A stretch of DNA of 35,758 bases from assembly GCA_022616375.1 (NCBI GenBank), contig JAKEEW010000401.1, positions 1-35,758 on the forward strand, read 5' to 3'. The DNA comes from Sporichthyaceae bacterium (GTDB taxonomy: Bacteria > Actinomycetota > Actinomycetes > JAKEEW01). The stretch's first letter is position 1. Each line of letters starts with the position of its first letter. Below, piece by piece: positions 31,944 through 35,758 of this stretch. A model generated the notes under the pieces. That model did not search any database. It was not told the DNA's origin and saw nothing but the letters and a program-made list of their open reading frames with translations. The translations under genes were made by a program, and so were the position numbers.

Positions 31944-33269
31944 GTGCACGATGCTCTCCTGGACAGCCTGCGACGCGCGGTCCAAGCGGCTCCGACCGAC
32001 GTGGCGCTCCGGCTTCACCTGGCCGAGCTGCTGATCGACGGTGATCAAGCGACCGAGGCGCTGACCCATCTCGGCGTGGTGCTCCAGCACGACCCGACCT
32101 CGGCGCCAGCCCGATCGCTACTGACTCGCGCGATGGGGTCGGTCGGCCCGCCGCGGACCCAGGACGATCCGGTGCCGGACAGCGTCGCGACGCCGGACCC
32201 GGTCACCGAGCCGGACAGCGTCACGACCCCGGATCCGGTCACCGAGCCAGATCTACCTCGCCGCGATCAAGCGGAGCAGCCGACCGACGGCAAGGCAGGG
32301 TTCGACTGGAGCCGGGCCGAGGGCGAGTTCGCCGGCGTGGTGCCGCCGATGTTCGTCGACGGCGACGCCGAAGACGCCGAGGGCGTGCCCGCCTACGACG
32401 TGGAGCGCTCGACCGTCACGCTGGCCGATGTCGGCGGGATGGAGCCGGTCAAGGCACGCCTGGAGGCCGCGTTCCTGGCCCCGATGCGCAATCCCGAGCT
32501 CAAGGCGCTCTACGGCAAGAGCCTGCGCGGCGGCCTGCTGCTCTACGGTCCTCCCGGCTGCGGCAAGACATTCATCGCCCGTGCGCTGGCCGGCGAGCTC
32601 GGCGCCCAGTTCGTCTCGGTGTCGCTGGCCGACATCCTGGACATGTGGATCGGTCAGAGCGAGCGCAACCTGCATGACGTGTTCGAGCTGGCCCGCCGCA
32701 ACGCGCCATGCGTGCTGTTCCTCGACGAGATCGACGCGCTTGGGCAGAAACGGTCCCAGCTGCGCAACTCCGCCATGCGGTCTACGGTCAACCAGCTGTT
32801 GGCCGAGCTGGACGGGGTCAGTACGGCCAACGAAGGCGTCTTCGTGCTGGCCGCGACGAACGCGCCCTGGGATGTCGACCCGGCGCTGCGCCGCCCGGGC
32901 CGGCTGGATCGCACAATCCTGGTGCTGCCGCCGGACGAACCGGCCAGGGCCGCGATCCTGCGCCATCACCTGCGGGATCGGCCGATCGCCTCGATCGACG
33001 TGACCAAGCTGGCCAAACGGACCGACGGGTTCTCCGGCGCGGACCTGGCGCACGTGTGCGAGGCCGGTGCCGAACGGGCACTGCTGGACTCGGCCCGGAC
33101 GGGTACCACCCGCATGATCTCGATGTCCGACCTGGAAGCCGCGCTGCGCGAGATCAAACCGTCGATCCGGCCGTGGCTGGAGTCGGCCCGGAATGTCGCG
33201 CTGTTCGCGAACGAGGGCGGACAGTACGACGAGCTGCTCGCCTACCTCAAGACCCGGAAGATGGCCTGA
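31944..33269 (+). CDS. AAA+ ATPase (FtsH/p97-type module) with TPR-like N-terminus
   Basis: 441 residues, GTG start without SD. Residues 1-65 look like a TPR pair (LRRAVQAAPTDVALRLHLAE, LGVVLQHDPTSAPARSLLTR). Residues 66-115 are an acidic/Pro linker with two near-identical PDPVTEPD segments. The AAA+ module: DVGGMEPVKARLEAAFLAPM, Walker A GPPGCGKT (202-209), pore-type VSLADILDMWIGQSERNLHD, Walker B VLFLDEIDAL (257-266), arginine fingers RRPGRLDR (316-323), then the lid GFSGADLAHVCEAGAERALL. No protease or Zn domain follows, so it is an unfoldase/remodeller, not FtsH. Five bases separate it from the TPR membrane gene; the two likely form one complex. Confidence 0.9.
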   Translation: MHDALLDSLRRAVQAAPTDVALRLHLAELLIDGDQATEALTHLGVVLQHDPTSAPARSLLTRAMGSVGPPRTQDDPVPDSVATPDPVTEPDSVTTPDPVTEPDLPRRDQAEQPTDGKAGFDWSRAEGEFAGVVPPMFVDGDAEDAEGVPAYDVERSTVTLADVGGMEPVKARLEAAFLAPMRNPELKALYGKSLRGGLLLYGPPGCGKTFIARALAGELGAQFVSVSLADILDMWIGQSERNLHDVFELARRNAPCVLFLDEIDALGQKRSQLRNSAMRSTVNQLLAELDGVSTANEGVFVLAATNAPWDVDPALRRPGRLDRTILVLPPDEPARAAILRHHLRDRPIASIDVTKLAKRTDGFSGADLAHVCEAGAERALLDSARTGTTRMISMSDLEAALREIKPSIRPWLESARNVALFANEGGQYDELLAYLKTRKMA

Positions 33270-33274
33270 TCGGG

Positions 33275-34342
33275 ATGACTGATACCGATACCTCGCTGGC
33301 CCGGATCCGGGCGCTGGTGGAGACCCGGCGCTGGGCCGAGGCCCGCCAGCATCTGACCAGCGTGCTGAGCGCCAGCCCGGACTCCGCCCCGGCGCTGTGC
33401 CTGCTGGCCCAGTGCGAGCTCGGGCTGCAGCAGCCGGAGGCGGCGCGGCGGGCGGCAGCGGCCGCGATCGCGGCCGCGCCGGACGAAGAATGGGGACATC
33501 GGCTGCATGCGCTGGCGCTGAGCCAGCTCGGCCGGCACGACCAGGCCATCGCGGCCGCAACCGAAGCGGTCCGGCTGGCTCCCGACCTGTCCTCCTCGCA
33601 CTGGGTCCTGGGTCACGCCCTGCTCGGCAGCCCGACCCGGGCGAAGGAGGCGTACCCGGTGGCCCAGCGGGTGGTCGCGCTGGATCCGCACGACGCGGAC
33701 GGGTTCGTCCTGCTCGGGCTCGCCGCAGACAAGCACAAGCGGCGGGACGAGGAGCGCGCGGCGTACCACAAAGCGTTGGAGCTCGATCCGGACAACGCCG
33801 CGGCCATGAACAACCTCGCTGCCATGGATCTCAACCGCGGCCGGCTGGGCCGGGCCGCCCGCCAGGTGACCGCCGCACTCCAGATGGATCCGCACGAGCA
33901 AGTGCTGCGCGCCAACCTGGATCAGCTCGCGCTGCGACTGCTCGGCCGGCTATTGAACGCGATGCTGCTCAGCGGGTTCGTGCTGTTGCTCACCATCGCC
34001 GCCGAGTCCAGCGGTGACCTGCCGACCTGGTGGCCGCGGGCCATCGCCGGCACGTTGCTGCTCGCGACCTACGCCACGATCGCCTGGCTGACCCTGCGGC
34101 ATCTGCCGGCCGGCTCGCGCCGCTACTTGCGCGGTCTGCCCGGCCGGCTCACCGGCAAGGCCAAGCTTCTGTGGATCGTCTTCCTGGTGCTCTCCGCCGC
34201 CATGCTGGTGGCCGCGTTCGCTCCGGGTGACGCGGCCGGCGTCGGCGCCGTGATCACAATCTTGATCATTCGCGGGTTCCAGATCGCGCTAGTGGTGATG
34301 ATCATCCGTTGGGTGGTCAACAAGGTTCGGGGTCGCAGCTAG
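33275..34342 (+). CDS. TPR protein with C-terminal membrane domain
   Basis: 355 residues from the ATG at 33275 (a longer frame from 32708 lies inside the AAA+ gene). Residues 5-210 hold about six TPRs, the clearest being HRLHALALSQLGRHDQAIAA, EAVRLAPD, and HKALELDPDNAAAMNNLAAM. Residues 227-346 contain four hydrophobic segments (about 227-243, 256-274, 298-316, 322-346), ending in a basic tail KVRGRS. So the TPR part is cytoplasmic and anchored in the membrane. The upstream AAA+ protein starts with similar TPR-like helices, which supports a shared partner or hetero-assembly. No known system name can be given. Confidence 0.85.
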   Translation: MTDTDTSLARIRALVETRRWAEARQHLTSVLSASPDSAPALCLLAQCELGLQQPEAARRAAAAAIAAAPDEEWGHRLHALALSQLGRHDQAIAAATEAVRLAPDLSSSHWVLGHALLGSPTRAKEAYPVAQRVVALDPHDADGFVLLGLAADKHKRRDEERAAYHKALELDPDNAAAMNNLAAMDLNRGRLGRAARQVTAALQMDPHEQVLRANLDQLALRLLGRLLNAMLLSGFVLLLTIAAESSGDLPTWWPRAIAGTLLLATYATIAWLTLRHLPAGSRRYLRGLPGRLTGKAKLLWIVFLVLSAAMLVAAFAPGDAAGVGAVITILIIRGFQIALVVMIIRWVVNKVRGRS

Positions 34343-34393
34343 CGCGTCCGGCACCGGCCGCGCCGGCGACGTCAGAGTGCTGGCGCAGCGCCC

Positions 34394-34610
34394 GGGAATC
34401 GACGACACGGGCCGGGAATCCACGTCAAGGTCGGGAACCCACGTCAAGGTCGGGGAATCGACGACACGGGTCGGGAATCGACGACACGGGCCGGGAATCC
34501 ACGTCAAGGTCGGGGAATCGACGACACGGGTCGGGAACCGACGACACGGGCCGGGAATCCACGTCAAGGTCGGGAATCGACGACACGGGTCGGGAATCCC
34601 CGTCGTCGCC
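34394..34610. repeat. tandem array of two interleaved 19-20 base units
   Basis: About eleven units share the head GGGAAYC. Type A is GGGAATCGACGACACGGGYC (20 bases); type B is GGGAATCCACGTCAAGGTC (19 bases). The order is A B B A A B A A B A and a degenerate last copy; A-A-B occurs twice as a 60-base block (34453-34512, 34513-34571). It fills most of the 336-base gap before the aldehyde dehydrogenase. No open frame through it has coding character. Unit length near two helical turns would put copies on the same DNA face. Confidence 0.9.
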
Positions 34611-34678: not shown

Positions 34679-35758
34679 ATGACAGTGTCCGAGTTCTACC
34701 TGGCCGGGAAGTATGCGACCGGCGAGGCCGCCCGTACCGTCCCGGTCCGCAGCCCGGTCACCGGCGAGCAGCTGACCGAGGTCCCGGTCGCCACCGCCGC
34801 CGAGGTCGACCGAGCCGTCCAGGCCGCCCGCCGGGCGTTCGACGACTACCAGCACTGGAGTGTGTACGAGCGCGCCGAGCTCTGCCGCCGGGTGGCAGAG
34901 CTGATCGAGGCGAACGCCGACGAGCTGGCCCGCCTGACCACGCTGGAGCAGGGCAAGCCGCTGGCCGAGGCGCACGGCGACGTGGAGGACTCGGCCGCGC
35001 TGTTCTCGATCTCGGCCGAGGATGCGAAGCGGCTCTACGGCGAGGTGATCCCGAGCACCGACCGGAACAAGCGGATATTCACGTTCCGCCGCCCGGTCGG
35101 GGTGTGGGGAACCATCACGCCGTGGAACTTCCCGCTGATGATCATGTGCGAGTTCATCGGACCGGCCCTGGCCACCGGCAACGCCGTGGTCGCCAAGCCG
35201 CCGGAGAACACCCCGCTGGCCTGCCTGGCGCTGGGCCGGCTGCTGTCCGAGGCCGGCGTGCCGGACGGCCTGGTTTCGATCATTCCCGGCCCCGGGGAGG
35301 TCGGCGAGGCGCTGGTCACCCACCCGCACGTGGACGCGATCGGCTTCGTCGGATCCTCGGCCACCGGCGAGCGGATCACTCGGGCCGCCGGGCTGAAGCG
35401 TTCGATCATGGAGATGTCCGGCAACGGCCCGATCGTGGTCTGCGCCGATGCCGATCTCGAGATCGCCGCCGCGGCCGCCACCTACGGGGCGTACTGGAAC
35501 GCCGGTCAGGTGTGCTGCGCCAGCGAACGGGTGATCGTGGCTGCGGCCGTCAGGGACGATTTCGTCAGCACCGCGATCAAGGCAGCCGAGGTAGTCAGGC
35601 TCGGCGACCCGTTCGATCCGGCCACCACGATGGGACCGCTGAACAACGAGGCCACTGCGGCCAAGATGGACCGGCACCTGGCCGACGCCGCCGACCGCGG
35701 GGCCGAGCTGCTGCTCGGCGGCGGCCGCGCCAACGGGCACCCGACCGCGCTGTACTAC
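34679..35758 (+). CDS. aldehyde dehydrogenase, N-terminal part (runs off the window)
   Basis: 360 codons are present; the gene continues past the right edge. NAD(P)-dependent oxidation of an aldehyde to an acid. Visible motifs: TITPWNFPLMIM, NAVVAKPPENTPLA (cofactor Lys), IGFVGSSATGERI, the general base Glu in IMEMSGNGP, and the nucleophile Cys in NAGQVCCASERV. MSGNGP replaces the more usual LGGK(S/N)P. The start is ATG 34679 with AGGA at 34667-34670. Class (succinate-semialdehyde, lactaldehyde, betaine or other) is not decidable from this part. It lies immediately downstream of the repeat array. Confidence 0.92.
   Translation, partial: MTVSEFYLAGKYATGEAARTVPVRSPVTGEQLTEVPVATAAEVDRAVQAARRAFDDYQHWSVYERAELCRRVAELIEANADELARLTTLEQGKPLAEAHGDVEDSAALFSISAEDAKRLYGEVIPSTDRNKRIFTFRRPVGVWGTITPWNFPLMIMCEFIGPALATGNAVVAKPPENTPLACLALGRLLSEAGVPDGLVSIIPGPGEVGEALVTHPHVDAIGFVGSSATGERITRAAGLKRSIMEMSGNGPIVVCADADLEIAAAAATYGAYWNAGQVCCASERVIVAAAVRDDFVSTAIKAAEVVRLGDPFDPATTMGPLNNEATAAKMDRHLADAADRGAELLLGGGRANGHPTALYY

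Follow-up and report, generated by a model that had tools for sequence, protein, structure and literature searches.

A protease-free, p97-like AAA+ ATPase and a TPR membrane protein form a conserved two-gene unit in Actinobacteria

Bacterial FtsH pulls proteins out of the membrane and degrades them. Msp1/ATAD1, a machine with a single AAA+ module and its own membrane anchor, extracts membrane proteins without proteolysis. An actinobacterial AAA+ ATPase with N-terminal TPRs is known from type VII secretion, namely EccA. The actinobacterial Cdc48-like protein Cpa has two AAA modules (PMC6017811). An arrangement resembling the one described here, in which a TPR + 6TM gene replaces snf7 beside the gene for a bacterial VPS4-like AAA+ protein (example ACB74714.1), receives one sentence in the accessible text of Ravi et al. 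2024 (PMC11237479), where such pairs are described as VPS4-like transfers from archaea. This was the only mention of the pair that we found, and it makes the arrangement less novel. In the literature searched, we found no characterised bacterial motor that is conserved, p97-like, free of a protease and served by a membrane receptor of its own. The pair reported here is genuine and conserved, and it represents a two-gene AAA+ system at the membrane that is essentially uncharacterised.

The window that we analyzed (35,758 nucleotides, contig C774) comes from a fragmented actinobacterial metagenome-assembled genome (MAG) of 4.64 Mb in 971 contigs, which is 96.75% complete and 5.77% contaminated. 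An AAA+ ATPase of 441 amino acids is encoded on the forward strand (31944..33269) from a GTG start, and homologues align from this same position. After a gap of 5 nt, the same strand encodes a TPR-membrane protein of 355 amino acids (33275..34342), hereafter the partner. A sequence-only reading of the window had claimed a two-gene unit here, and the open reading frames, strand and spacing are all as it described.

That reading also held that the ATPase lacks a protease domain and begins with TPR-like helices. Pfam and the predicted structure (mean pLDDT 86.1) agree on this and define two TPRs. The Pfam matches were AAA (1.6e-43), AAA_lid_3 (2.2e-9) and TPR_19 (1.4e-6), and no peptidase domain was detected. 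The two TPRs (residues 2-66; 31947..32141, forward strand, as for all features of the pair below) match TPR_19/TPR_20 and form four helices in the model, mostly with pLDDT above 90. The linker that follows (residues ~70-150) is mostly disordered in the model and has one short helix at residues 122-129, coinciding with a conserved FDWxxAE pattern (residues 120-129; 32301..32330). A simple pattern match found xDWxxxE in 28 of 38 ATPase homologues; FDWxxAE is absent from some ATPases that are still paired with a partner (L092 and L094). We consider this helix a candidate docking motif.

The AAA+ core (residues 153-343; 32400..32972) is p97-D2-like in sequence and fold, and its catalytic motifs are conserved among the 38 aligned homologues. 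Walker A (GPPGCGKT, 32547..32570) is invariant or nearly so, while the Walker B Asp-Glu (32724..32729) and the arginine-finger motif RPGR (32892..32903) are invariant, and the sensor-1 residue is also conserved. In pore loop 1 (MWIGQSE, 32643..32663), the Gly and Glu are invariant and the aromatic position is Trp, Tyr or Phe in nearly all homologues. The AAA lid (residues 353-403; 33000..33152), seen by Pfam (AAA_lid_3) and in the model, is followed by a family-specific C-terminal tail (33159..33257) with the pattern PSxxPWxxxARNVAxFANxxGxYDELxxYLK. Trp411, Ala415, Gly426 and Tyr428 of the tail are invariant in the 38 homologues, and the model places its two helices within residues 409-437. 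No Pfam match was obtained when the tail was searched separately.

Among solved structures, p97 has the nearest AAA+ core by both sequence (372 bits) and fold (TM-score 0.80-0.84 against D2, for the domain only). Like p97 D2, the ATPase combines a D2-type fold with a complete ATPase site, a canonical pore loop and arginine fingers. However, Cdc48, p97 and Cpa have two AAA+ modules and an N-domain, whereas this ATPase has one AAA+ module and N-terminal TPRs. A phylogenetic tree of 98 AAA+ cores, in which the bootstrap had not fully settled, placed the ATPase family in one group (94/85 support) apart from the FtsH-like, Mpa-like and Cdc48-like sequences of the same genome; these three outsiders sit on long branches. 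The Cdc48-like sequence is a separate gene fragment on contig C216 and falls outside the ATPase clade.

The suggestion that no named system fits was borne out when we examined FtsH, Vps4, EccA, Cpa, Mpa and IteA, none of which could accommodate the ATPase. FtsH is a membrane-located AAA+ machine, and of the NCBIfam models its own scored highest on the AAA+ region (215.6 bits). Identity with FtsH was rejected, as this score lies far below the cut-off of 600, the C-terminal M41 zinc peptidase is missing, and the ATPase has no membrane helices of its own; it also falls in a different clade from the FtsH-like sequence of its genome. The models for EccA (T7SS_EccA, 38.7 bits against a cut-off of 466.65), Mpa/ARC (pup_AAA, 130.9 against 504.75) and IetAS/IteA (IteA, 130.8 against 510) were rejected on score. 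No recurrent secretion-locus neighbours were seen beside the ATPase, and IetAS/IteA has a subtilisin-like protease as its partner, unlike the TPR and membrane-helix protein found here. Vps4/CdvC was likewise rejected: the N-terminal piece matches TPR families only, with no MIT domain, the lack of a Pfam match in the tail means that there is no Vps4_C, and the CdvC model reached 164 bits against a cut-off of 650, below the FtsH, CDC48 and PAN models.

The predicted structure of the partner (mean pLDDT 90.9) contains twelve TPR helices, that is six TPRs, and then four long C-terminal helices, in agreement with the earlier description of a six-TPR protein with four membrane segments. The TPRs span residues 2-204 (33278..33886; pLDDT mostly 93-98), and a Pro is conserved every 34-35 residues, at positions 35, 69, 103, 138, 172 and 206. 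The four C-terminal helices (residues 209-244, 252-275, 294-315 and 320-352; 33899..34330) coincide with four hydrophobic segments in the sequence. The loop between TM2 and TM3 carries on average 5.0 Lys and Arg residues, compared with 0.6 between TM1 and TM2 and 0.5 between TM3 and TM4. By the positive-inside rule, the TPRs, the TM2-3 loop and the C-terminus are therefore predicted to face the cytosol. For the partners of a few loci (L015, L032, L057, L091 and L093), few membrane segments or none are predicted, which means that not every partner is membrane-anchored.

We profiled the co-occurrence of the two genes, as frequent absence of the partner beside ATPase homologues would have argued against a functional pair. 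A scan of the collection returned 383 ATPase relatives, and we analyzed the best 80 of the 383 loci, calling partners in each with profiles built from both families. All 80 are actinobacterial except one from a Chloroflexota MAG. A TPR partner adjoins the ATPase in 77 of the 79 assessable loci (L038 ends at a contig edge and could not be assessed for a partner), which favors the pair, and the strong TPR matches fall beside the ATPase in loci of up to 13 kb. The partner lies directly downstream in 65 of these loci and in the window. Among these 66 cases, a 4-nt overlap of the two genes is the commonest spacing (37 cases), and the intergenic distance is between -11 and +7 nt in 59. In two loci (L040 and L059), the partner is upstream on the same strand, and in ten (L010, L011, L029-L031, L033, L035, L041, L048 and L068) it is upstream and divergent. 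The divergent loci belong to Catellatospora, Micromonospora, Jidongwangia, Catelliglobosispora, one Actinoplanes and Ruania, in one part of the tree. Many of them have a separate small membrane protein gene (~143 amino acids) beside the partner, as if the partner had been split.

Both loci without an adjacent partner (L009 and L017) support the pairing rule. Of the exception genomes, that of Actinoplanes utahensis carries a second, complete pair of ATPase and TPR-TM genes on a different contig, and in that of L009 TPR-TM homologues occur at unlinked sites. A search for partners alone within the class returned TPR proteins in three genomes (G054, G086 and G140) that we set aside as other TPR membrane proteins; they have 6-8 predicted TM segments, and no ATPase of the pair family lies near them. 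The identical arrangement is present on annotated megaplasmids of Streptomyces and Actinomyces, where the products are named 'ATP-binding protein' or 'AAA family ATPase' and 'tetratricopeptide repeat protein' or 'hypothetical protein'. The fragmentation and contamination of the MAG (971 contigs, 5.8%) could raise the suspicion of chance neighbors or an assembly artefact. However, the same pair occurs in dozens of isolate genomes and on complete plasmids, and because of this conservation we practically dismiss that explanation.

Clustering of the neighboring genes in the 80 loci revealed that the outer neighborhood varies by lineage, which indicates that the module consists of two genes. No third gene recurred across lineages in this similarity clustering, which covers short genes and unclustered singletons poorly. 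Neighbors limited to single lineages occur, for example, in Actinoplanes and in Mycobacterium (prfB-mscS-ftsE-ftsX-smpB, names read by eye from sequence); due to this restriction we took them as context and not as components. Immediately upstream of the diverged pair in locus L094 is a gene that, by eye, resembles a TgpA-type transglutaminase membrane protein.

These neighborhoods bear on whether the pair could be a bacterial analogue of Vps4-ESCRT-III, with the ATPase recycling a membrane-bending polymer, as proposed for the VPS4-like AAA+/TPR-6TM pairs. The small helical domain, linker and single AAA+ module resemble the MIT-linker-AAA layout, and in the accessible text of Ravi et al. 2024 (PMC11237479) a TPR + 6TM gene stands in place of snf7. 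However, the ATPase has neither MIT nor Vps4_C, its CdvC score is far below the cut-off, and the similarity clustering of the 80 loci, with its partial coverage of short genes, offered no cross-lineage third gene as a candidate for the polymer, such as a linked ESCRT-III (Snf7/PspA) gene. We regard this analogy as quite improbable. Going by that text, the pairs of Ravi et al. appear to resemble this one in joining, as two neighboring genes, an ATPase with a single AAA+ module to a TPR protein that has a membrane domain. Theirs are described as VPS4-like with 6TM, whereas here the ATPase is p97-D2-like with TPRs and the partner usually has 4 TM, as it does in the window. Compared by description rather than by sequence, the two may represent the same or sister families.

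Our preferred interpretation, which we hold to be somewhat more probable than not, is that the pair acts as an AAA+ remodelling machine or unfoldase that is non-proteolytic and is recruited to the membrane by a TPR adaptor; we deduce docking, threading and client indirectly. The topology of the partner suggests that it would be embedded in the cytoplasmic membrane and expose its six TPRs to the cytosol. Its TPR groove could then recruit the ATPase, probably through the N-terminal TPRs of the ATPase or the FDWxxAE helix of the linker. The ATPase is expected to be a hexamer, as in close relatives, and, judging by its aromatic pore loop and complete ATPase site, would pull clients through the pore. 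Since it has no protease, its action would be unfolding, extraction or disassembly, here presumably of membrane or membrane-associated proteins, and it would work like p97, Msp1 or Vps4. The likeness to Msp1 is one of working only, as the membrane anchor here is a separate TPR protein.

Comparison of evolutionary rates revealed a median identity of 64% for the ATPase core and 28% for the partner TPRs. The distances of the two correlate (rho 0.51; 1 of 999 permutations was as high), which fits co-inheritance of the two sequences and would be expected equally from shared ancestry. The fast-evolving partner probably sets the choice of client. A more specific and tentative version of the adaptor model, possible but doubtful at present, is a dedicated actinobacterial system for membrane-protein quality control or extraction, like Msp1 or ER p97, in which a rapidly diversifying TPR-membrane receptor picks clients for a conserved non-proteolytic motor. 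If a protease-free motor with its own membrane receptor is confirmed, the pair would offer a bacterial model of p97/Msp1-type extraction reduced to two genes.

The same data could be read the other way, with the TPR-membrane protein as the client and not the adaptor. In this view it builds a membrane complex, which is taken apart or reshaped by the ATPase. A client might evolve much faster than its ATPase, as the partner does, and the strict gene pairing also suits this idea, as do the loci with two partners per ATPase, which flank it in L087 (genome G135) and follow it in tandem in L047 and L052. However, TPR domains are usually docking scaffolds, and the confident model of the partner has no evident disordered tail from which threading could start. 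We therefore consider a client role unlikely and retain the adaptor model.

With strict thresholds, the ATPase was detected in 9 genomes when 148 from the class were searched and in 6 when 198 from the phylum were searched (both counts include the source genome), and this patchy distribution indicates that the pair is accessory. Some genomes carry two ATPase copies (Actinospica and G198). Two phage proteins matched the ATPase, both distantly and at the level of general AAA+ similarity. The patchiness within the class, the presence on megaplasmids and the weak AAA-core similarity to the defense ATPase IetA/IteA could point to an anti-phage or other conflict system. However, the IteA model scored 131 bits against 510, no effector gene recurs, and the neighbors are ordinary chromosomal genes, such as the prfB to smpB group read by eye in mycobacteria. 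We judge a conflict role to be very improbable.

Three loci from another class (L106:1129-2367, L107:1495-2946 and L108:1495-2763) contain ATPases that fall inside the tree on long branches and have no partner in the locus. Profile searches of these genomes for a partner returned only weak, generic TPR matches (at most 43 bits, against ~75-350 for partners). The ATPases of L106 and L107 have Gln instead of the Walker B Glu (DQ) and Glu instead of the sensor-1 Asn, and we predict from these substitutions that both are hydrolysis-dead. Loss of the partner thus accompanies a diverged ATPase in one lineage, a single case. In all three loci, a reading frame for an HtrA-like trypsin/PDZ protease runs divergently alongside the ATPase.

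The sequence-only reading had placed the pair where conserved ribosomal genes would be expected. This needs correction, as the only rpsB found in the genome is on contig C737, with tsf, pyrH and frr intact beside it. C737 ends ~700 bases upstream of rpsB and retains 117 C-terminal residues of an aldehyde dehydrogenase that reads towards rpsB, and the window closes with 360 N-terminal residues of such an enzyme (34685-35758). Against the same set of homologues, the fragments are complementary, one reaching residue 360 and the other starting at ~368. Contigs C774 and C737 are therefore likely adjacent, and the ribosomal operon very likely follows directly. Given this contig join, which we infer, the cassette is inserted at the junction, and together with the dehydrogenase it has probably shifted the operon downstream and not replaced it. 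The likely gene order is whiG-like sigma factor, aminotransferase, M23 peptidase (reverse strand), ATPase, TPR-4TM protein, dehydrogenase and rpsB-tsf-pyrH-frr.

The space that separates the aldehyde dehydrogenase gene from the TPR gene contains a tandem array (34392-34598) of ~20-nt units (CCGGGAATCGACGACACGGG) with a 60-nt higher-order unit and 93% matches. Its motif is nearly confined to this site, where six of the seven matches in the genome are located; the other is on contig C529.
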